This document shows, piece after piece, positions 2,731 to 23,445 of a stretch of 23,445 nucleotides of DNA. Made by a program: the position numbers and the translations under genes. Positions within the stretch are counted from its first letter, which is position 1; the number at the start of each line of letters is the position of its first letter. Source of the stretch: a virus. The stretch is from positions 1-23,445 of IMG/VR virus record IMGVR_UViG_3300032083_000291. One strand, given 5' to 3'. The notes under the pieces were generated by a model. The model was not told the DNA's origin. It worked only from the letters and a program-made list of their open reading frames with translations, and searched no databases.

Positions 2731-3434
2731 TGGCTACATCTATCGCGGATGACCTGCGTGAGTGGTCTATGAATGTCTTAGAAGTTCCTAACCTGCATTT
2801 AGATGGATTGCCTGCCTGCCCCTATGCAAAGAAAGCGTGGCAAGATAATAAAGTGAAAATAGTAGAAACTAAGAATATATACAAAGAGACACTAAGACAG
2901 TGTACTGAATTTACAGATAATAGATACGAAGTGGTAGTATGTGCTTCTTTTACTATACCTAACATGCAAGAGTTCAGTACGTGGTGTGAAGAACGTAATA
3001 ACCTACTAGCTAAACAAGACCTGCACATTATGGGTTTTCACCCTGAGTTTGGTGCAGAAGAAGCTGAATTAGATTTTCTATACGAACACAGTTGGGAGAG
3101 TTCCGTAAAGGATGAATACTGTATGGTTTTCATACAGTCACTATCTCAAGTAGACGACGCTAGTTTAAAATTAGAAAAGCTAGATTACTACAAAGTCTAC
3201 CCTGAAGACGAATATCAGGAATTAGTTATTAACAGAAGGACTAAGAGAAATGGCAATGAAACCCAGAGCAATGAAAAAGAAAATGATGCGCGGTGGAGGA
3301 GCAGTAAAAAAGCCAGCAGCAAAGATGATGCGCGGCGGCGGAGCAGTAAAGAAACCAGCAGCAAAGATGATGCGCGGCGGGACTACGGCGCTTCCGGGCG
3401 GGTTACCAAAAAGAAGCAGACTAAGCAACACTGA
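2730..3434 (+). CDS. Protein with CPYAKKAW and FHPEF motifs, C-terminus overprinted on the next gene
   Basis: 234 residues. The first about 172 form a folded domain with LPACPYAKKAW (C30), a central strand YEVVVCASFT, LLAKQDLHIMGFHPEF (H104) and LSQVDDASLKLEKLDYYK. The paired C-P-[FY]-A-K and F-H-P signatures resemble the CPFA/FHP layout of DUF1415-like proteins of unknown function; I give this link low weight. From residue 174 on, the frame runs for 185 nt inside the MRGG-repeat gene in another phase and encodes a low-complexity Lys/Arg/Ser/Asp tail (DDARRRSSKETSSKDDARR) that mirrors that gene's DNA repeats. The domain probably ends near NRRTKR and the tail is a read-on extension. TAATG start. 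Confidence 0.7.
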   Translation: MATSIADDLREWSMNVLEVPNLHLDGLPACPYAKKAWQDNKVKIVETKNIYKETLRQCTEFTDNRYEVVVCASFTIPNMQEFSTWCEERNNLLAKQDLHIMGFHPEFGAEEAELDFLYEHSWESSVKDEYCMVFIQSLSQVDDASLKLEKLDYYKVYPEDEYQELVINRRTKRNGNETQSNEKENDARWRSSKKASSKDDARRRSSKETSSKDDARRDYGASGRVTKKKQTKQH

Positions 3435-3915
3435 GGCATTTAAGAGGAGGACTGAGTTAAATAAAAAAGCACAGGCTGCACGAGCAGCCGGTCGCCCTGT
3501 AAATGCAACTACTGCTATAAAGCGAGCCAATGCTGCGATTGCTCTTGAGCGTAAACGTAAAAATGCTGCGGATGCTCTTAAGAGTAGACGTGATGAGGCT
3601 AGAGATGCTCTTAATCTTAGACGTGCTAAGGCTAAAAAACCTGTAGCTAAAAAACCTGTAGCTAAAAAACCTGTAGTTAAAAAACCTAGCAAATCTGATC
3701 CAAAACGAGAAGTAGCCTACGGTTCTAGTTTTGTAGATGATAGCGGAATGTATACGCCTAAAAAACGCGTTTCGCCATCCTCTAAAGCCTCTAAAGCTAT
3801 TGGTTCAGCAAAGATGATGCGCGGCGGAATGAAAAAGCCAGTAGCAAAAATGCGCGGCGGCGGAATGAAAAAGCCAGTAGCAAAAATGCGCGGCGGCGGA
3901 TTAAAAAAGAAGTAG
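3250..3915 (+). CDS. MRGG/KKPVAK repeat protein, probably nucleic-acid binding
   Basis: 221 residues, extremely basic and repetitive. The N-terminus carries two and a half copies of a 14-residue MMRGGGAVKKPAAK unit (residues 12-44). The middle is a helical Lys/Arg/Ala segment with RKRKNAADALKSRRDEARD, then three to four AKKPV pentads (residues 128-147). The C-terminus repeats MRGGGMKKPVAK and ends GGGLKKK. RGG clusters are typical of RNA/DNA-binding disordered regions, and AKKPV pentads resemble histone-H1-like or AlgP-like tails, so nucleic-acid binding or condensation is a fair inference. The ATG at 3250 has AGAAGGA at 3234-3240. I recall MMRGG-rich proteins from marine phage genomes without a known role. 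The first 185 nt overlap the previous gene. Confidence 0.7.
   Translation: MAMKPRAMKKKMMRGGGAVKKPAAKMMRGGGAVKKPAAKMMRGGTTALPGGLPKRSRLSNTEAFKRRTELNKKAQAARAAGRPVNATTAIKRANAAIALERKRKNAADALKSRRDEARDALNLRRAKAKKPVAKKPVAKKPVVKKPSKSDPKREVAYGSSFVDDSGMYTPKKRVSPSSKASKAIGSAKMMRGGMKKPVAKMRGGGMKKPVAKMRGGGLKKK
3283..3381 (+). repeat. 42-bp tandem direct repeat (2.4 copies)
   Basis: Units start with atgatgcgcggcgg at 3283, 3325 and 3367 (the last one truncated). They encode MMRGGGAVKKPAAK in the main frame and DDARRRSSK-type sequence in the overlapping frame. Copies differ mainly at silent positions of the main frame. Confidence 0.9.
3631..3690 (+). repeat. 15-bp tandem repeat gctaaaaaacctgta (3 exact copies plus a variant)
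   Basis: Exact copies lie at 3631, 3646 and 3661, with a variant starting gttaaaaaacct at 3676. They encode AKKPV pentads in the middle of the MRGG repeat protein. Confidence 0.9.
3814..3912 (+). repeat. 36-bp tandem repeat, C-terminal MRGGGMKKPVAK units
   Basis: Copies begin at 3850 and 3886, with a related shorter unit from 3814. The DNA shares the atgcgcggcgg core with the 42-bp repeat at 3283, so the two arrays probably derive from one another. Confidence 0.85.
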
Positions 3916-6454: not shown

Positions 6455-6896
6455 AGCATTACAACGTAGTATTGGAAGTTGGAAATTACCTCAACCACTT
6501 GATGTTAGAGAAGACGGTGAATGGGTTCCTATACCACGTATAGCTAGAACAGTACCGTTTGGCTATGAGCTAGATGAAGGCGACGATAAAGTTTTACTTC
6601 CTATTGAAACAGAACTAAATGCGTTGTCGGAAGCTAAAAAACATTTAAAGAAATATTCTTACAGAGAAGTATCTAATTGGTTAAGCACAAGAACAGGTCG
6701 CTACATATCACACGTAGGATTAATGAAACGGGTAAGAAATGAGCGAAAGCGTAAAAACAAAGCTACTATCCTCCGCAAGTGGGCAGCGTATGTCGAAGAG
6801 ACGCTCGCCAAAGCGGAGGAACTCGAAAAAGAAAGACTCGACGCCCAAACAGACACTACACGCAGCGGAGCTACTGAAGAACCCGCAAAAGATTGA
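6444..6896 (+). CDS. HTH protein between the terminase genes
   Basis: 150 residues from the ATG at 6444; a TTG three codons upstream (6435) is possible but weaker. The N-terminus SIGSWKLPQPLDVREDGEW leads to IARTVPFGYELDEGDDKVLL. A helix-turn-helix similar to resolvase/invertase DNA-binding domains follows (YSYREVSNWLSTRTGRYISH, then VGLMKRV), and the C-terminus is a long charged helix (AAYVEETLAKAEELEKERL). I recall equivalents beside large terminase genes in marine phages. A role as DNA-recognition partner of the terminase is inferred from the HTH and position. It overlaps the small subunit gene by 11 nt and the large subunit by 158 nt. Confidence 0.7.
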   Translation: MTTKALQRSIGSWKLPQPLDVREDGEWVPIPRIARTVPFGYELDEGDDKVLLPIETELNALSEAKKHLKKYSYREVSNWLSTRTGRYISHVGLMKRVRNERKRKNKATILRKWAAYVEETLAKAEELEKERLDAQTDTTRSGATEEPAKD

Positions 6897-8325
6897 GTCT
6901 TCTGTAGCACATCAACCACCTGAATCTGTAGAACAAAATGCTGTATTCAAACCTAATGCTGGCCCACAAACAGAGTTTTTAGAGGCCGCAGAACGAGAAG
7001 TATTGTATGGTGGTGCAGCAGGTGGTGGCAAGTCTTTTGCTATGTTAGCTGATCCTGTACGTTATTTTTCCCACCCCGATTTCAGTGGGCTACTGCTTAG
7101 ACATACAACAGAAGAACTTAGAGAACTTATTTTTAAGTCTCAAGAGATGTATCCTAAAGCAGTTCCGGGCATTAAATGGTCCGAAAGAAAGATGCAGTGG
7201 ACTGCGCCTTCCGGTGCGCGATTGTGGATGTCTTATCTGGATAGAGATGAAGACGTATTGCGTTATCAGGGTCTAGCATTTAGCTGGATAGGCTTTGATG
7301 AGTTGACTCAGTGGGCTACACCTTATGCGTGGGACTACATGCGATCTCGTCTACGGTCCACTGCTCCTGACTTACCTGTATATATGCGGGCTACAACCAA
7401 TCCGGGCGGCAGAGGGCATCATTGGGTTAAGAAAATGTTTCTTGATCCTGCACCACCGAACAGCAGATTTGTAGCTACTAACATTGAAACAGGCGAAGAT
7501 TTAAATTATCCGGCAGGTCATGCTAAAGCAGGAAAGCCTTTATTTAAAAGAAGGTTCATACCCGCTAAACTAATTGATAATCCATATCTAGCTGAAAGCG
7601 GAGACTATGAAGCAATGCTTCTTTCTTTGCCGGAGCAACAAAAAAGACAGCTATTAGACGGTGACTGGGATATTAAAGAAGGTGCAGCGTTTACGGAATT
7701 TAATAGAAACATTCATGTCGTTGAGCCATTTGACATACCAAATAATTGGGTTAAGTTTCGTGCTTGTGACTATGGCTATGGTTCATATAGTGGCGTGTTA
7801 TGGTTTGCTGTAAGTCCAGATGAACAACTAATCGTATACAGAGAGCTATACGTGTCTAAAGTATTAGCTACAGATTTAGCCGATATGGTATTAGAACTAG
7901 AGGCAGAAGACGGTAATATTAAATATGGTGTTCTTGATAGTTCTTTGTGGCATAAAAGAGGTGATACAGGCCCATCTTTGGCGGAACAAATGATTAGTAA
8001 AGGGTGTCGTTGGAGACCGTCTGATCGTAGTAAAGGTAGTAGAGTTGCAGGTAAAAACGAAATTCATCGTAGGCTTCAGGTTGATGAATTTACAGAAGAA
8101 CCCAGATTAATCTTTTTTAATAGTTGCACAAATATGGTATCTCAATTACCTGCTTTACCTATAGATAAGAAAAACCCCGAAGATATTGATACTCACTCAG
8201 AAGATCACTTGTATGATGCTTTACGTTACGGTATAATGTCAAGACCACGCTTTAGTATTTTTGACTTTGATTCACAAATGCCCAGAAATACTCATACACC
8301 AGCCGATGCTGTATTTGGATATTAA
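6739..8325 (+). CDS. terL: Terminase large subunit (packaging ATPase and nuclease)
   Basis: 528 residues, a usual length. KPNAGPQTEFLEAAEREVLY precedes the Walker A motif GGAAGGGKS (91-99). Walker B is WIGFDELT (D187 and catalytic E188), followed by the coupling motif RATTNPGG (218-224). The C-terminal RNase H-like nuclease has ACDYGYG (D344), YGVLDSS (D400) and HSEDHLYDALRYG (D489/D493), the expected acidic residues for two metals. It pumps DNA into the prohead and cuts concatemers. The start is uncertain: ATG 6739 is the longest, ATG 6790 the main alternative. The first about 52 residues are Lys/Arg/Ser-rich and overlap the HTH gene; similarity to the family starts near residue 45. Confidence 0.92.
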   Translation: MSESVKTKLLSSASGQRMSKRRSPKRRNSKKKDSTPKQTLHAAELLKNPQKIESSVAHQPPESVEQNAVFKPNAGPQTEFLEAAEREVLYGGAAGGGKSFAMLADPVRYFSHPDFSGLLLRHTTEELRELIFKSQEMYPKAVPGIKWSERKMQWTAPSGARLWMSYLDRDEDVLRYQGLAFSWIGFDELTQWATPYAWDYMRSRLRSTAPDLPVYMRATTNPGGRGHHWVKKMFLDPAPPNSRFVATNIETGEDLNYPAGHAKAGKPLFKRRFIPAKLIDNPYLAESGDYEAMLLSLPEQQKRQLLDGDWDIKEGAAFTEFNRNIHVVEPFDIPNNWVKFRACDYGYGSYSGVLWFAVSPDEQLIVYRELYVSKVLATDLADMVLELEAEDGNIKYGVLDSSLWHKRGDTGPSLAEQMISKGCRWRPSDRSKGSRVAGKNEIHRRLQVDEFTEEPRLIFFNSCTNMVSQLPALPIDKKNPEDIDTHSEDHLYDALRYGIMSRPRFSIFDFDSQMPRNTHTPADAVFGY

Positions 8326-8336
8326 AGGAATTATAA

Positions 8337-10478
8337 ATGGCTATTGAAGAAGATGACTTCCTAATCGAAGAGATGGGTGTAGCAGCAGAAGATGTGGATA
8401 ACGTAGATGAAGTAGACTACGGCTATACGCCTATTCTTAAATATATCAACGACAAATACGAAAAGGCTAAAACCTACCGTTTTACGGAAGAGCAACGCTG
8501 GCTAAAATCTTATCGTAATTACAGAGGCATTTATGGTCCTGACGTTCAGTTTATGGAAACAGAAAAATCTCGTGTATTTATTAAAATTACTAAAACTAAA
8601 ACACTTGCGGCATATGGTCAAATTGTAGATGTACTATTTGGTAATCAGCGTTTTCCTATTACTATTGATCCTACAGTATTACCCGAAGGTGTAGAAGACA
8701 CCGTACACTTTGATCCGTCACTTCCTGATGAGCTTAAAGAAGAAGGTCCAGTAGAACAAGATAGCCCGTATGGTTTTGCAGGTGATGGTGCAGACTTACC
8801 TGCGGGTTCTACAGAACGCTCTCTTATGCTTGCGGGTATGGAAGAAAAACTACAGGATGTAAAGGGTCTTAAAAAAGGTCCGGGTACAACGCCTTCCGCT
8901 ATTACCTTTCATCCTGCTATGGTTGCAGCAAAGAAAATGCAAAAGAAAGTTATGGATCAATTACAGGAATGTAATGCTTCCAAACATCTTCGCAGCACTT
9001 CTTTTGAAATGGCGTTATTTGGTACAGGTGTACTAAAGGGTCCATTTGCTGTAAATAAAGAATATGCAAACTGGGATGATGAGGGTACGTATACGCCAAC
9101 CATTAAAACTGTACCTCAAATTGGTCATGTAAGTGTTTGGAATTTTTATCCAGACCCAGATGCAAACAATATGGAAGAAGCACAGTACGTTGTAGAGCGT
9201 CATAAGATGAGCCGCAGCCAATTACTTAATCTTAAAAAACGCCCTCTCTTTAGGGGTAATGTCATTGACCAATGTGTTGAGCAGGGTGAGTCCTACGTAA
9301 AAGAATGGTGGGAAGATGATCTTGCTGATTACGAACAGACACATAGCATTGATCGTTTTGAAGTTTTAGAATACTGGGGTGTAATTGATACAGACCTTCT
9401 TGAAGATGAAGACATTGATATTCCAGAAGAGCTTGCAGATGCAGATCAAGTACAAGCTAATATCTGGACAGTTAATGGTCAAGTTATTCGTCTTGTAGTT
9501 AATCCCTTTAAACCTGTTCGTATTCCATATATGGCAGCACCGTATGAACTAAATCCATACAGCTTCTTTGGTGTAGGCATTGCTGAAAATATGGAAGACA
9601 CACAAATTCTTATGAACGGCTTTATGAGAATGGCTGTAGATAATGCTGTATTGTCTGGTAATCTTCTTATTGAAGTGGATGAAACAAATCTAACTCCGGG
9701 TCAAGACCTCAGTGTTTATCCCGGTAAAGTGTTTCGCCGTCAGGGTGGTGCGCCCGGACAGGCAATCTTTGGTACTAAGTTTCCAAATGTTGCTGGTGAA
9801 AATCTACAGCTATTTGATAAAGCTAGACAGCTTGCTGATGAAAGCACCGGCTTTCCTTCTTTCGCGCACGGACAAACGGGTGTGTCGGGTGTAGGTAGAA
9901 CTGCTAGTGGCATTAGTATGCTTATGGGCGCAGCAGCAGGCAGTATTAAGAACGTCATTAAGAATGTAGACGACTACCTACTAAAGCCTCTCGGTGACGG
10001 TCTATTTCAGTTTAACATGCAGTTTTCTTTTGATAAAGATATTAAGGGTGATCTTGAAGTTAAGGCACGTGGTACAGAAAGTCTGATGGCTAACGAAGTA
10101 CGTAGTCAACGCCTCATGCAATTTATTCAAGTTACTAGCAATCCAGCACTTGCACCTTTTGCAAAAATGGATTATATTATCACTGAGATTGCCAGATCAC
10201 TTGATCTTGATCCTGAAAAGGTTGTCAACAATATGGGTGACGCAGCACTTCAGGCAGAGATGATGAAGGCGTGGCAAGCAACTCAGCCACCACCGCCACA
10301 ACAGGGCGCTCCAGCAGGAGCTAATCCTCAAGACCCAACGGGTGCAGGCGGTGGAAACATTGGTGTAGGTATGGCACCCGGACCACAAGAACAGGGATTC
10401 TCAGGTAATGAACAACAACAGCCAGCAGAAGGCGGAGCGCCTCAAAGCACTGGTCAGCAACCCCCACCTGTGGGCTAA
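8337..10478 (+). CDS. Portal protein
   Basis: 713 residues, in the size range of podovirus portals of the P22 type. It follows the large terminase after 11 nt, with AAAGGAAT as ribosome binding site. Portal-like features are an acidic N-terminus, YRFTEEQRWLKSYRNYRGIY, a central WNFYPDPDANNMEEAQYVVE segment, YWGVIDTDLL, IPYMAAPYELNPYSFFGVG and a long helical region with MAVDNAVLSGNLLIEVDE and SGVGRTASGISMLMGAAAGS. The last 67 residues (647-713) are Pro/Gln/Gly-rich and disordered; the end overlaps the next gene out of frame by 71 nt. The portal is the dodecameric ring at the capsid vertex for DNA entry and exit. Confidence 0.9.
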   Translation: MAIEEDDFLIEEMGVAAEDVDNVDEVDYGYTPILKYINDKYEKAKTYRFTEEQRWLKSYRNYRGIYGPDVQFMETEKSRVFIKITKTKTLAAYGQIVDVLFGNQRFPITIDPTVLPEGVEDTVHFDPSLPDELKEEGPVEQDSPYGFAGDGADLPAGSTERSLMLAGMEEKLQDVKGLKKGPGTTPSAITFHPAMVAAKKMQKKVMDQLQECNASKHLRSTSFEMALFGTGVLKGPFAVNKEYANWDDEGTYTPTIKTVPQIGHVSVWNFYPDPDANNMEEAQYVVERHKMSRSQLLNLKKRPLFRGNVIDQCVEQGESYVKEWWEDDLADYEQTHSIDRFEVLEYWGVIDTDLLEDEDIDIPEELADADQVQANIWTVNGQVIRLVVNPFKPVRIPYMAAPYELNPYSFFGVGIAENMEDTQILMNGFMRMAVDNAVLSGNLLIEVDETNLTPGQDLSVYPGKVFRRQGGAPGQAIFGTKFPNVAGENLQLFDKARQLADESTGFPSFAHGQTGVSGVGRTASGISMLMGAAAGSIKNVIKNVDDYLLKPLGDGLFQFNMQFSFDKDIKGDLEVKARGTESLMANEVRSQRLMQFIQVTSNPALAPFAKMDYIITEIARSLDLDPEKVVNNMGDAALQAEMMKAWQATQPPPPQQGAPAGANPQDPTGAGGGNIGVGMAPGPQEQGFSGNEQQQPAEGGAPQSTGQQPPPVG

Positions 10479-10626
10479 CTTTGTAGAGTATTTAGACTAT
10501 CAAATAGAACAGCAGCATAAAGTGCTAGAACAATCTGAGTGTTCTGTTGGTGTACAAAGAGCGCAGGGTTACATTCAAGCCCTTAGAAAATTAAAGTCTT
10601 TGGATAATATAGTTAAGAGGGATTAA
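10408..10626 (+). CDS. Small helical protein coupled to the portal gene, unknown function
   Basis: 72 residues, mostly helical: LKALVSNPHLWANFVEYLDY, then QIEQQHKVLEQ and VGVQRAQGYIQALRKLKSL. The layout (NPxWxxFxEYLD, then RAQGxIxALRxLK) matches small proteins that I remember directly after the portal gene in other marine phages, so the frame is very probably real although its first 71 nt lie inside the portal gene. The region that overlaps it in the portal is the disordered Pro/Gln tail, which can tolerate overprinting. Its function is unknown. Confidence 0.75.
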   Translation: MNNNSQQKAERLKALVSNPHLWANFVEYLDYQIEQQHKVLEQSECSVGVQRAQGYIQALRKLKSLDNIVKRD

Positions 10627-10627
10627 T

Positions 10628-12316
10628 ATGCTAGAAAAACAAATGGAATTATTTGAAGAGGGTGGTCAGGTTGATCCCGTATCAGGCAATGACGTACCTT
10701 TAGGTAGCACGGAAAAAGAAGTACGTGATGACCAGCCTGCTATGCTTAGTGAAGGTGAGATGGTAATTCCTGCTGACGTTGTTCGTTATTTTGGCGTTGA
10801 GCATTTTATGAAGCTTCGAGATGAAGCTAAAATGGGCTACAAGAAAATGGAGGCTATGGGTCAATTTGGTACAGAAGAAGGACAAACATTACCAGACGAC
10901 ACATTATTTAATGCGGGTGGCCCACCTTTTACGATTGAGGATATTGAGGTTATTGAACCTGACGACTTAGAAAGCTTAGAAGGTGGTGAAGAAGATACTT
11001 TAGAAGCTAATGCAGGTGCCTTTGTTCAAGGAGGGCAGGGAACTAACCCTTTTGATAATAATGCTGCTACAACAGCAGGGCAACAATTTGCAGCAGGAAA
11101 ACCTATAACAGCTAGTAGCTTTAGTCAGCCTGCTTTTACATTTGATAGTTTTAAAGGTTTTTCTGGTCTTACTTCTGACTATATTCAAAGTTTTTTACCT
11201 GATGCTTTTAAAAATAAAAAACCAAAACAGGCTAATCTAGCTACTAACATATTAGATACATTTTATGGAGATAAGCTACGACAACAAGCTCAAGGAGCTT
11301 CCACAAAAGCTGGTCAAAGTGACCTACCAGATGCAGGAGGAAAATCTGATCTTTCTAGTGCTACACCCGGTATAGGATCAGTAAGTGAATTAATGAGTAA
11401 TCCTAGTACAGCTAGTTTAGGCTCTCTTGCAGGATTGGGTCAAATGTTAGACAGCACTATTGGTCGTGGTGTTTTAGGTTTTGCAGATTTAGCTATTGGT
11501 CAAGCATTAACCCCATCAACAGGCCTGATGGGACCAGTTGGCGGGCTTATGGCGACGGCATCTGCGCTTAGTCCTACTATAAGTAAGGGTTTTGATGTAG
11601 TAAACAATGTAGCTACTACGGACGCAAAAAAAGCTAAAGATGCAGCACTTTCTATAGAGTATGATTTAAGTAAAATGTCTCCGGCAGAAATTACAGACTT
11701 AAACACCTATGCACAATTTAATGCTATAAGTAATGTTACAGGTTACGACCCTACAGTAGACCCCGCTGTTAGTGCTGTTGGTATGACTTCTCAGGGAGTA
11801 CCCGGATTTTCTGTAGCGGGAACGTTTGGTGCCACATACGGGTGGAATGATGAGCTTGGCGAATTTGAAGTGGTAGCAGACAAACTTACCCCAACAGACG
11901 TTAATAAAGCTAAGACAACATCACAGAAGATGGCACAAAACGCTAAAAGCCATGTTAGTGCGGGTTTCACTGTCGATGAAGTTGAGGATGAAGACGACAT
12001 AGCAGATATTGATGATCCGGGTTTTGACCAATCTGCAACTACTGCTCCTGACTTTGACCCCAATGATCTTGGTGATGATGCTCAAGCTGATGCCGAAGCT
12101 GATGTTGATGATGCTGAAGCAACTTCTGCCGAAGAAGCGGGTGCGGGAGACGGTTCTTCTACAGGCGATGATAGCGGTAACGAAACTGAGGATGGAGATG
12201 ATGGAGCAGAAGGTGTAGGTGCAGCTAAAGGAGGATTAATCAAGCGTAAACCACGAAACAAAAAAAGAGGTGGAAGAAAAAGAAAGAAAAGAGGGGGCTT
12301 AGGTTCCCGAAAGTGA
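10628..12316 (+). CDS. Large protein with FEEGGQ and PAMLSEGEMVIPADVVRYFG motifs; acidic stretch and basic tail
   Basis: 562 residues, function unknown. Residues 1-80 are the conserved-looking part: FEEGGQVDPVSGNDVPLG, then STEKEVRDDQPAMLSEGEMV, IPADVVRYFGVEHFMKLRDE and AKMGYKKMEAMG. I know this segment from uncultured marine phage proteins. The middle (about 100-440) is Gly/Ser/Ala/Thr-rich with likely helices and Gly-rich hydrophobic stretches (SLAGLGQMLDSTIGRGVLGF). Residues 450-533 are very acidic (Asp/Glu/Ala), and the last 29 are very basic (AAKGGLIKRKPRNKKRGGRK and onward). An internal virion, ejection or assembly protein is plausible from its place between portal and scaffold. The ATG at 10628 has AGAGGG at 10616-10621. 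Confidence 0.75.
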   Translation: MLEKQMELFEEGGQVDPVSGNDVPLGSTEKEVRDDQPAMLSEGEMVIPADVVRYFGVEHFMKLRDEAKMGYKKMEAMGQFGTEEGQTLPDDTLFNAGGPPFTIEDIEVIEPDDLESLEGGEEDTLEANAGAFVQGGQGTNPFDNNAATTAGQQFAAGKPITASSFSQPAFTFDSFKGFSGLTSDYIQSFLPDAFKNKKPKQANLATNILDTFYGDKLRQQAQGASTKAGQSDLPDAGGKSDLSSATPGIGSVSELMSNPSTASLGSLAGLGQMLDSTIGRGVLGFADLAIGQALTPSTGLMGPVGGLMATASALSPTISKGFDVVNNVATTDAKKAKDAALSIEYDLSKMSPAEITDLNTYAQFNAISNVTGYDPTVDPAVSAVGMTSQGVPGFSVAGTFGATYGWNDELGEFEVVADKLTPTDVNKAKTTSQKMAQNAKSHVSAGFTVDEVEDEDDIADIDDPGFDQSATTAPDFDPNDLGDDAQADAEADVDDAEATSAEEAGAGDGSSTGDDSGNETEDGDDGAEGVGAAKGGLIKRKPRNKKRGGRKRKKRGGLGSRK

Positions 12317-12398
12317 TAGTCACACTTAAACAGACTAATTTGCTGGCTACTCATCCCCCTACACAGTAGGCTACGGTGGCCCCAGAGAAAGAAATATA

Positions 12399-13262
12399 AT
12401 GTCTGAAGTAGATACCGTACAGGTAGAAGAAAAGAAAGCCTTTATTAGTCGTCCGTATTCCAATTCGGAACGCATTAAGAAAGACGAAGAAGAACTAGAA
12501 GAAATGCTTCGCGTACAAAAGGGTGAAGTGTCCGAAGAAGAAGAAGAACAAGAGGCAGAACCCACTACCGCTGAAGAGCGTTCATTTAAAAAGAGATATG
12601 GTGACTTACGTAGACACACACAGAAACAACAGGAAGACCTACAATCTCAAATTAGTGAATTAAAGGAACAGCTTACGTCTGCCACTAAAAAGGAGATGAA
12701 GCTACCTAAAACAGACGATGAGATTGATGTGTGGATGTCTAAGTATCCAGACGTAGCAGCCATCGTAGAAACTATTGCAATTAAGAAAGCAAGAGAACAA
12801 TCTACAGAATTAGAAGAGCGTGTAACTAAAATTAATAAGATGCAAGAAGACGCAGAGCGTCAGAAGGCAGAAACTGTTTTGTTACAGTTACACCCAGACT
12901 TCGATGAAATTAGACAGGACGATGACTTCCACACGTGGGCAGAAGAACAACCGCGTTGGATTCAACAAGCCCTGTACGACAATGACAATGATGCTCAAGC
13001 AGCAGCAAGAGCCATTGATCTATATAAGGCAGACAGAGGTATTAGTACCAAAAAGAAAAGCAAGCGTTCTAGTAACGCCGCTGAAATGGTAGATACCCGT
13101 GCCACACGTAATCGGCCTACAGCCGAAGATACTTCCGGCGTCATTAAAGAATCAGACGTTCAGAAGATGTCAGCTACACAGTACGAAAAGAATCAAGATA
13201 CTATTATGGAAGCTATCCGTTCAGGAAAGTTTGTATATGATCTTTCTGGTTCAGCACGTTAA
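12399..13262 (+). CDS. Probable capsid scaffolding protein
   Basis: 287 residues, acidic at the N-terminus and strongly helical. Residues 25-58 are Glu-rich, residues about 70-95 form a coiled coil (KQQEDLQSQISELKEQLTSA), and a second coiled coil lies around 125-155 (EQSTELEERVTKINKMQEDA). A Lys-rich linker (STKKKSKRSS) and a C-terminal segment with YEKNQDTIMEAIRSGKFVYD follow. Acidic coiled-coil proteins coded directly before the major capsid gene are the usual scaffolds that guide prohead assembly. The C-terminal YEKNxDxIMEAIRSGKFxYD pattern is one I remember from putative scaffolds of marine phages. No protease motif is visible. It is separated from the upstream gene by 82 nt. Confidence 0.75.
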   Translation: MSEVDTVQVEEKKAFISRPYSNSERIKKDEEELEEMLRVQKGEVSEEEEEQEAEPTTAEERSFKKRYGDLRRHTQKQQEDLQSQISELKEQLTSATKKEMKLPKTDDEIDVWMSKYPDVAAIVETIAIKKAREQSTELEERVTKINKMQEDAERQKAETVLLQLHPDFDEIRQDDDFHTWAEEQPRWIQQALYDNDNDAQAAARAIDLYKADRGISTKKKSKRSSNAAEMVDTRATRNRPTAEDTSGVIKESDVQKMSATQYEKNQDTIMEAIRSGKFVYDLSGSAR

Positions 13263-13508: not shown

Positions 13509-14564
13509 ATGGCATTTTCAGCAGCAGCAGGATACGGCAACCTACCTAACGGTGCATTTAGTCCTGTAATTTATTCTAAGCAGGTGCAGCTTGCGTTCCG
13601 TAAGTCATCTGTATGTGAAGAGATCACCAACTCTGATTATTTTGGTGAAATTGCTAATATGGGTGACACCGTTCGCATTATTAAGGAGCCTGAAATCTCC
13701 GTTAAAGCGTACACTCGTGGCACCGTTATTACACCTCAAGACCTAGACGATGAAGACTTCAGCCTCACGGTTGATAAGTCTAACTACTTTGCTTTTAAGG
13801 TTGATGACATTGAAGAAGCACATTCTCATGTTAACTTCCAGTCACTAGCTTCTGATCGTGCGGCTTTCCGCCTATCTGATCAGTACGATCAAGACGTTCT
13901 TGGTTATCTTTGTGGCTTTAAGCAGTCTGCACTACACAGTGTTGCTAGTGCTGTTAACACCACTGTTAACGGTGAAGTTGCTGTTGCAACCGCTGGCACA
14001 GACGAACTACTTTCTAGCATGAAGATTGAAGCCGACGACTTCGGTGGTTCTTCAGGAAGTGCTGTTGGTATTAAGGCTCGTGCTGGTAATGATGGTGCAG
14101 TCGTTGGTTCTGGTAATGCTTATGCTATTCAGGTTATTTCCCGTATGGCTCGTAAGCTTGACCAACAGAATGTTGATTCAAATGGTCGTTGGCTCGTTAT
14201 TGATCCAGTCTTTAAGGAAATTCTTCAGGACGAAGATTCCAGACTATTCAACAGCGACTTCGGCGGTTCTGGTCTTCAGAACGGTCTAGTTCTAAACAAC
14301 CTACTTGGCTTTAAAGTATACGTCTCTAACAACCTACCTTCAGTTGGTACAGGTTCCTCCACAACTGGTGGTACAAACGCTTCCAACTATGGTGTTGTTG
14401 TTGCAGGCCACTCTTCAGCCGTAGCTACTGCCGAACAGATCAACAAAACAGAAACCTATCGTGATCCAGATAGCTTTGCTGATGTTGTTCGTGGTATGCA
14501 TCTTTATGGCCGCAAGATTCTTCGTCCCGAAGCTCTTGTAAACGCCAAAGTTTGCTTAGTATAA
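13509..14564 (+). CDS. Major capsid protein
   Basis: 351 residues, the expected size for an HK97-fold major capsid protein without a large delta domain. It begins MAFSAAAGYGNLPNGAFSPV, then IYSKQVQLAFRKSSVCEEIT, the N-terminal arm and first helix. EIANMGDTVRIIKEPEISVK and VDKSNYFAFKVDDIEEAHSH look like the long strands of the E-loop and P-domain, and WLVIDPVFKEILQDEDSRLF plus LLGFKVYVSNNLP fit the A-domain. I recognise the NLPNGxFSPxIYSKxVQLAFRKSS start from marine phage capsid proteins. Strong ribosome binding site AAAGGAG (13494-13500), own promoter and leader upstream. Codon choice shifts to C-ending codons (AAC, GAC, TTC), in keeping with high expression. Confidence 0.92.
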   Translation: MAFSAAAGYGNLPNGAFSPVIYSKQVQLAFRKSSVCEEITNSDYFGEIANMGDTVRIIKEPEISVKAYTRGTVITPQDLDDEDFSLTVDKSNYFAFKVDDIEEAHSHVNFQSLASDRAAFRLSDQYDQDVLGYLCGFKQSALHSVASAVNTTVNGEVAVATAGTDELLSSMKIEADDFGGSSGSAVGIKARAGNDGAVVGSGNAYAIQVISRMARKLDQQNVDSNGRWLVIDPVFKEILQDEDSRLFNSDFGGSGLQNGLVLNNLLGFKVYVSNNLPSVGTGSSTTGGTNASNYGVVVAGHSSAVATAEQINKTETYRDPDSFADVVRGMHLYGRKILRPEALVNAKVCLV

Positions 14565-22975: not shown

Positions 22976-23445
22976 ATGGCTGCCCCATATACCAACATTA
23001 AATTTTCTGATGCTGCTATGCCACGCATTGCACAAGCAACAGGCTATAGTAATCCCAACTATAATAAGGCGGGATTCCAACAGTTTCTAGCTCAGAATCC
23101 AGATGCCAAAGCTAAGTATGATCAATTTCAGCAGCAGGCTGTAGGTACTATGATGGCAGCTAGAGGTGGTGTTGTCAAGTTTGTTGATGGTGGAATGGTT
23201 AAAAAAGTTAAACGCTTTGATGACGGTGGTGATGCTGGTGATGACGGGGGTGATGCTAAGACACCTGAAGAAATAGCTGAAAAAGAAGCGGCAAAATTAA
23301 GATTGTCTACAACTGGTGGAAATACTACAACTGGTGGAAATACTACAACTGTTTCTACAACTACACCTACTGTTTTATCACCCGAAGACATTACTAAGAA
23401 TACTGATAGATTATCAACACTAAGTAAGTTTGATCCCAATAAACT
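22976..23445 (+). CDS. N-terminal part of a protein with RGGVVKFVDGGMVKK motif (runs off the window)
   Basis: Open from ATG 22976 to the window end, 156 residues visible and no stop reached. Residues 1-58 look folded: MAAPYTNIKFSDAAMPRIAQ, ATGYSNPNYNKAGFQQFLAQ and NPDAKAKYDQFQQQAVG. Then comes MMAARGGVVKFVDGGMVKK (59-77), the GG-hydrophobic-basic motif, followed by an acidic Gly/Asp run. After that is a Thr/Gly region with an exact 18-bp repeat (23309-23326, 23327-23344, acaactggtggaaatact). GATTAAGATATGG gives a usable ribosome binding site. The pairing of this motif with a disordered acidic tail is like the 10628-12316 protein. The function is unknown. Confidence 0.75.
   Translation, partial: MAAPYTNIKFSDAAMPRIAQATGYSNPNYNKAGFQQFLAQNPDAKAKYDQFQQQAVGTMMAARGGVVKFVDGGMVKKVKRFDDGGDAGDDGGDAKTPEEIAEKEAAKLRLSTTGGNTTTGGNTTTVSTTTPTVLSPEDITKNTDRLSTLSKFDPNK

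Follow-up and report, generated by a model that had tools for sequence, protein, structure and literature searches.

Tape measure protein (TMP) genes sit among the tail genes of phages. Passages in several structural papers place part of a TMP chain in the particle: residues 1022-1066 of the JBD30 TMP are predicted by the authors to form a hook that retains the TMP within the baseplate (PMC11445458), the T5 TMP is observed with its end anchored in the hub once opened (PMC10038345), and the modelled parts are residues 818-842 only in lambda (PMC10721106) and 1658-1699 in Douge (PMC13033339). A second described group, the polyvalent proteins, is portrayed in sections of PMC5512222 as injected with the DNA, the phage members probably being packaged in the capsid. 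Here we compare both groups with a gene, X, that lies between the portal gene and a presumed scaffold gene and is labelled 'hypothetical protein' in all nine of the HMO-2011, CRP and ctYwJ313 records inspected. HMO-2011 is termed a podovirus in a passage of PMC6256558, and HMO-2011-type phages are termed dominant and broadly distributed in the sea in a passage of PMC9038755.

The portal-scaffold locus and its RNA element

The window, by which we mean the whole stretch of DNA analysed, is an IMG/VR record of 23,445 bases. Its late genes run in the following order:

6739-8325, terminase (Pfam Terminase_6N, E 1.2e-6)
8337..10478, + strand, portal gene, upstream neighbour of X (phrog_332, 7.8e-76; phrog_1216 portal, 1e-37; Pfam SU10_portal, 6.1e-28)
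10408..10626, + strand, 72-aa ORF between portal and X (ORF list)
10628..12316, + strand, gene X (562 aa), short form of a mosaic locus family (ORF call and family comparison)
12399..13262, + strand, presumed scaffold gene, downstream neighbour of X (phrog_13678, unknown function, 3.5e-65)
13509-14564, presumed coat gene, by position

The label 'scaffold' reflects position and look; no model names a scaffold. In a tblastn search of 50,697 phage records, X matched 14 (11 Roseobacter phages, HMO-2011 twice and one spring Caudoviricetes sp.), which bears out the original prediction that its N-terminal segment recurs in marine phages, and all 14 matches are confined to the first 109 residues. Together with a portal that is 71% identical to that of HMO-2011, these matches identify the window as part of an HMO-2011-type phage.

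Our family set comprises at least 111 distinct domain proteins, 87 of them complete, drawn from two IMG/VR scans (the best 80 in the second) and from named phages, with identical protein sequences merged before counting. The 24 of 111 left out of the complete set have a contig end in or beside the gene; a few doubtful ends close to a contig end, such as that of L010, were kept. A portal gene lies upstream of X relatives in 95 of the 96 cases with more than 900 bases upstream (the exception is L092), and a scaffold homologue lies downstream in all 83 with more than 600 bases downstream. Small ORFs resembling the 72-aa ORF, as judged by eye, follow the portal in relatives, even where X is missing. 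A portal search matched 224 records, and seven of those unmatched by X were inspected. In CHOED, Slicky01 and MQM1, three gammaproteobacterial phages whose portals are 41-42% identical, the interval from portal to scaffold contains no X, suggesting that this head type can be built without it. The same absence counts against X being a head-assembly accessory, that is, a procapsid protein or scaffold partner acting before packaging and missing from mature virions. The scaffold gene adjoining X in 83 of 83 cases fits such a role, as do charge blocks that could bind scaffold or portal; the cell-wall hydrolase and lysozyme fusions described below, however, suit a pure assembly factor badly, as does a module common to TMPs, and we consider this explanation unlikely.

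The gap between X and the presumed scaffold gene contains a further feature:

12333-12394, covarying RNA element between the X stop and the scaffold start (covariance model)

The element has the layout CUGG-CUAC-UCAUC-CC-CCUAC-loop-GUAGG-CUAC-GGUGG-CC-CCAG. RNA searches covered 90 of 134 sources, chosen to reach past X where possible, and the covariance model found the element once each in 83 of them (80 at E<=0.012 and three at E 0.03-0.3, these E-values being rough); the seven unmatched sources are CRP-603, CRP-738, HTVC033P, HTVC104P, Slicky01, CHOED and MQM1. The first in-frame ATG of the scaffold gene follows the element by 1-9 bases in 76 of 82. In 72 distinct rows, aligned by fitting to a structure (R2) that was drawn by eye after seeing those sequences, pairing holds in 94.5% of pair cells, and both sides have changed in 11 of 14 pairs; two-sided changes occupy 161 cells against a shuffled mean of 47, a count never reached in 500 shuffles. 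When the partner is slid by one base, pairing is 52-55% and two-sided changes occupy 29-33 cells. In the 11 seed sequences, whose alignment used sequence only, pairing reaches 97.8% of cells and five pairs are two-sided (0/500 shuffles); the number of pair types, one of five measures, was not above shuffles (424/500 reach it). In a first hand parse, which took in 63 of 81 rows, the middle helix was supported (3/2000 shuffles reach it) and the outer one was not (886/2000); the outer register of this parse was off by one base, and later counts use the corrected register. RNAalifold on 11 sequences had proposed a different helix set (model R1), which was rejected. When run on the 81 sequences that R1 had aligned, RNAalifold gave 0 pairs, although the R1 structure as stored did count above shuffles.

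Rfam gave no match at gathering score in the window and none at E<=5 in 12280-12420, and literature on such an RNA element was not seen among the matches listed. By eye, two 'CUAC opposite CC' internal loops face in a pseudo-twofold arrangement just before the start codon. The scaffolding protein of P22 limits its own synthesis, and one idea is that the element is a candidate autogenous operator for scaffold autoregulation. It is possibly more novel than protein X itself.

Make-up of X and its tape-measure module

Comparison with three close relatives divides X as follows:

10628..10957, + strand, conserved N-terminal region, residues 1-110 (alignments; dN/dS 0.19-0.47 against three close relatives)
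10718..10822, + strand, core common to TMPs, residues 31-65 (hhalign against seven TMP segments; PHROG matches)
10958..11974, + strand, variable middle, residues 111-449 (AlphaFold; three close relatives)
11975..12226, + strand, acidic block, residues 450-533, predicted disordered and unconserved in sequence (charge count, AlphaFold, relatives)
12227..12313, + strand, basic tail, residues 534-562, bipartite 'KGGL...KRGGLGSRK' (charge count, relatives)

The charge segmentation first noticed in X is real: the 84-residue acidic block has 33 D/E and 0 K/R, the 29-residue basic tail 16 K/R and 0 D/E, and such extremes were reached in 0 of 20,000 shuffles of the protein's charges. The supposed Gly/Ala middle is present but mild (24% G+A in 111-449), and the conserved segment PAMLSEGEMVIPADVVRYFG lies at 37-56, one residue off the predicted 38-57. 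Identity to the three relatives is 94-96% over residues 1-110, 74-83% in the middle (dN/dS 0.55-0.96), 31-33% in the acidic block and 89-100% in the tail. Judged from these comparisons, the acidic block is kept in character and not in sequence, and the domain and the tail are the parts held by selection. It had been proposed that the two blocks could fold back onto one another, which would make an electrostatic clasp. We find this very improbable: the blocks are indeed above chance, but the acidic sequence has drifted where the tail has not, both blocks are predicted to be disordered (pLDDT <50 over residues 446-562), and part of the family carries an unrelated C-terminal domain in place of the tail. 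Binding of DNA or portal is a possible, candidate role for the basic tail.

AlphaFold gave a pLDDT of 47.1 and a pTM of 0.32 for the whole of X (16 sequences), with helices predicted within residues 252-371, where 10-residue blocks have pLDDT 41-87. Pfam yields no match for X at E<=1, and NCBIfam a single sub-threshold one, to an unrelated enzyme (E 0.019); no enzymatic domain was recognised with either database. Nor does X have a hydrophobic membrane-spanning stretch, its maximal 25-residue hydropathy being reached by 271 of 500 shuffles. In a hydropathy scan of 36 proteins none rose above its own shuffles (the lowest count reaching the maximum was 58/500), and a membrane segment was dropped as evidence.

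The N-terminal region follows the pattern 'SGN..P.GS..VRDD.PA.LSEGE.V.PADVVRY.G...LRDEAKMG..KMEAMGQ.G', and a 17-member alignment (A1) the pattern SGN..P.G....V.DD..A.LSEGE.V.P.DVVRY.G....LRDEAKMG..KMEAMGQ.G, with 13 invariant columns over the 17 members. At least 584 of at least 600 matches in an IMG/VR pattern search encode an X relative. The domain had been thought to have no assigned role, and it indeed has no family name and no Pfam match (the 17 domain sequences gave noise only), but its core corresponds to a module found in tape measure proteins, with residues 31-65 matching the TMP module 'GTGTSDSIPAxLSxGEFV'. Aligned by hhalign against seven TMP segments, A1 scored 48 (probability 95.2, E 2.8e-8), against 17 for the best of 100 column shuffles and 12.8 for a reversed control, a result on which the selection of the seven segments as matches to phage HTVC104P bears. 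When the 17 domain sequences were searched one by one against PHROG (E<=1), 14 matched phrog_3547 (tape measure; best E 3.6e-6) and 11 matched phrog_5448 (also tape measure). Tape measure families make up 8 of the 15 PHROGs matched; many of these single-sequence E-values are weak, the window domain's own best being 0.019. Ten reversed domain sequences matched no tape measure family, and neither did whole window X at E<=1; among whole long members, only 2 of 46 matched phrog_3547 at E<=0.001.

The Pelagibacter phage HTVC104P connects the two groups. Its protein at the X locus ends in GPGTGTSDSIPALLSDGEFVFTAKAVKHLGVDKL plus 29 more residues, a canonical TMP module, and has a PHROG tape measure match of 1.3e-10. 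The A1 HMM, built without HTVC104P, gives this protein 28.6 bits, against 6.0 for the best of 200 shuffles. Its last 63 aa match 1327 phage records (E<=1), and 44 of the 59 non-self rows among the matches listed, which are spread down the ranking, are annotated tape measure. The three best PDB matches of the HTVC104P protein are the TMPs of Douge, JBD30 and lambda. Without HTVC104P, the A1 HMM does not list JBD30 or T5 and gives lambda 3.1 bits, within shuffles; with HTVC104P, the domain HMM scores are 11.5 for JBD30 and 7.5 for lambda, the best shuffle reaching 6.1, and T5 is again unmatched. The whole T5 TMP was searched and its residues 1060-1140 were inspected, with no match to the module. 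A PDB search with the domain profile itself found nothing credible (best E 0.065), and a full-text literature search with six forms of the module sequence found no paper, which is no proof of its being undescribed.

The residues of the JBD30 TMP that match the module are 1025-1057, and by analogy with the hook predicted there X would be held at the portal or tail nozzle by its module. The lambda TMP matches over 740-786 (E 0.065). The Douge TMP (1699 residues) carries the module twice, at 971-1001 and 1419-1449, far from its modelled part and away from the C-terminus, so that a hook role is not general. Since the modelled parts in lambda and Douge exclude the module, and the anchored T5 TMP is unmatched, anchoring is proposed by analogy and not as a result. 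The domain modelled on its own (15 sequences) reached a pLDDT of 54.3 and a pTM of 0.31; short strands followed by predicted helices at 49-55 and 57-76 recall the 'two helices and a short hairpin' of the JBD30 hook, a likeness that we set aside as its confidence is too low.

Mosaic flanks and the role of X

X had been described as a charge-segmented protein; the segments are real, and X is one form of a mosaic family. The 87 complete members are 263-1730 aa long. In 42 of them the domain begins no more than 40 residues from the N-terminus, in 41 it is internal, and in four its end is at most 120 residues short of the C-terminus. Pfam searches (E<=0.001) used 46 of the 47 complete members of at least 640 aa, one of equal length and domain position having been dropped. 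LPD23 was found in five (best 3.6e-8), and phage tail lysozyme (8.1e-18), Hydrolase_2 (CRP-3, E 5.9e-16), DUF7178 (also CRP-3), Phage_L5_gp82 and a Hint domain (Pfam Vint, 4.3e-4) in one each; a DUF6782 metallopeptidase match in one was sub-threshold, and at least 36 of the 46 had no match. CRP-3 has a further, weak match to Methyltransf_23 (E 0.001) and CRP-738 gp40 one to TIGR04096 (E 2.2e-4), both below cut-off; the neighbouring gp39 bears the module. The module was not found in the locus proteins of phiM6, RHph_N3_19 and HTVC033P. The first two have sub-threshold Hydrolase_2 matches (1.3e-5 and 0.0024), and the third has a Cys-started C-terminal domain related to those of L023 (6.3e-11) and HMO-2011 X (5.6e-9). 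Two observations may be added: by eye, the C-terminus of one long relative (L109:4060-6240) looks Hint-like, and a 'W[TV]Q[VI]G' motif occurs in the N-terminal parts of 5 of the 46 (L036, L037, L096, L101 and L130). The N-terminal pieces of L036 and L037 matched no Pfam family above cut-off.

The C-terminal ends vary as well. A bipartite 'GGL-basic-GL' tail, by a pattern that we wrote ourselves, ends 36 of the 87 members and another basic GG tail a further 11; by pattern the full basic GG tail is absent in 40, some of which keep a short form such as KGGLIKRKK. A frameshift at the short tails of L008, L009, L014, L016 and L021 was rejected, as the tail is continued in neither of the remaining frames. 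Among 1068 ORFs of at least 90 aa at X loci, the tail pattern matched 49, near-identical loci included, against 0.0 expected from shuffled ends. All but one (48) belong to the X family, the other being window ORF 400-1215; as most of what these loci cover is the portal region, the count would miss carriers elsewhere. Two upstream window proteins, 400-1215 and 71-400, end in X-like tails (KGALVSRQRKGHTDMRKGGLFR; GGLIPPNKRTGNIDYRKTGLVRNKR...), of which only that of 400-1215 passes the pattern. Such tails suggest a common sorting or DNA-binding tag. The window also encodes, at 3250-3915, a basic protein of 221 aa in which units of MRGGG type recur, followed by KKP(A/V)AK.

About 17 of the 87 members, picked by eye, end instead in a Cys-started C-terminal domain. 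The C-terminus of the ctYwJ313 relative (L036) scores 52.1 bits for CFI-box-CTERM (NF041770), where the cut-off is 40; of the other Cys-ended members, the four that were tested (L034, L035, L041 and L042) do not match it, nor does window X, which has the basic GGL tail instead. In L041, L042 and L036, long Gly or Ser runs, spacer-like, directly precede the Cys-started domain.

The TMP module, the variable flanks with hydrolase and polyvalent domains, and the absence of X from phages with a related portal lead us to favour, with moderate confidence, a virion-internal protein of polyvalent type that is ejected with the DNA, carries a tape-measure-type anchor and, in the window, is reduced to a minimal form that lacks any known enzyme. 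The data show the homology of the module, the synteny of the locus, the modularity of the family and the conservation of module and tail; virion presence, ejection, anchoring and the tail's role are what we infer here. X would be made late, built into the head or the portal/tail channel, and leave the particle with the DNA at infection; the module of about 35 residues would hold it at the portal or tail nozzle, and the stretches around the module would be exchangeable cargo. In window X this cargo would amount to a helical middle, a disordered acidic spacer and the basic GGL tail, which may serve as a sorting tag or in binding packaged DNA. We found no virion proteomics for any protein of the X family, and PMC9038755 and PMC6918029, both on HMO-2011-type phages, mention neither proteomics nor mass spectrometry. 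HMO-2011 has other large genes (706 and 1128 aa) at the end of its structural module, and their products could be the main ejection proteins instead of X. The ORF at 22976-23445, cut by the window end, starts by eye like the N-terminus of the 706-aa product, HMO-2011 gp25, which itself ends in a Cys-started stretch.

Alternatively, X might be an injected effector of the polyvalent class that acts early in the host, the module serving as a mere packaging tag with no structural role in the exit channel. Among the 46 long members, the five that carry LPD23, the one with DUF7178 and the one with a Hint domain point this way, as do the weak methyltransferase matches of CRP-3 and CRP-738 gp40 and the prediction, in a part of PMC5512222, that phage polyvalent proteins are packaged and injected. 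Window X, however, lacks a recognisable enzymatic domain, at least 36 of the 46 long members have no Pfam match at E<=0.001, and we judge this alternative improbable. Beyond the favoured account of an ejected virion protein, we tentatively put forward that the LSxGE module is a portable anchor of unrelated ejected proteins, the TMPs of long-tailed phages and the mosaic cargo of short-tailed ones. On this view X would be a tail-less relative of tape measure proteins whose module holds cargo at the DNA exit and whose GGL-basic-GGL tail, as on window protein 400-1215, sorts it into the head. If true, presence of the module would predict ejected cargo in uncultured phages. The link to TMPs already gives a 'hypothetical' gene beside the portal a testable role and suggests a signature for ejected cargo, and a module common to long- and short-tailed phages would bear on the evolution of DNA-delivery proteins.

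With TMPs (phrog_3547, phrog_5448 and phrog_6090; JBD30 gp46, lambda gpH), X shares the LSxGE core of its residues 31-65 and a GG motif just before the module. The T5 TMP has a muralytic metallopeptidase motif, according to a passage of PMC10038345, and some X relatives likewise carry cell-wall hydrolases. In contrast to TMPs, X is encoded between portal and scaffold and not among tail genes, its family varies from 263 to 1730 aa with the module at any chain position, HMO-2011 is a podovirus, and window X has no hydrophobic membrane-spanning stretch. The HTVC104P protein occupies the X locus and ends in the canonical tape measure module; unlike X, it has 433 aa with the module at its very C-terminus, and the domain HMM aligns this end only. 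With the polyvalent proteins (Iyer et al. 2017, PMC5512222, whose main text contains neither 'tape measure' nor 'LPD23'), the X family shares the mosaic of unrelated domains in one chain and a phage with portal-terminase packaging, X lying among virion genes, and the Pfam family LPD23 in 5 of 46 long relatives. CRP-3 joins several different domains in a single chain (Hydrolase_2, DUF7178 and the weak methyltransferase), unlike window X, a short form with no recognised enzyme, and in contrast to the polyvalent proteins the fixed part of the X family is a tape-measure module.
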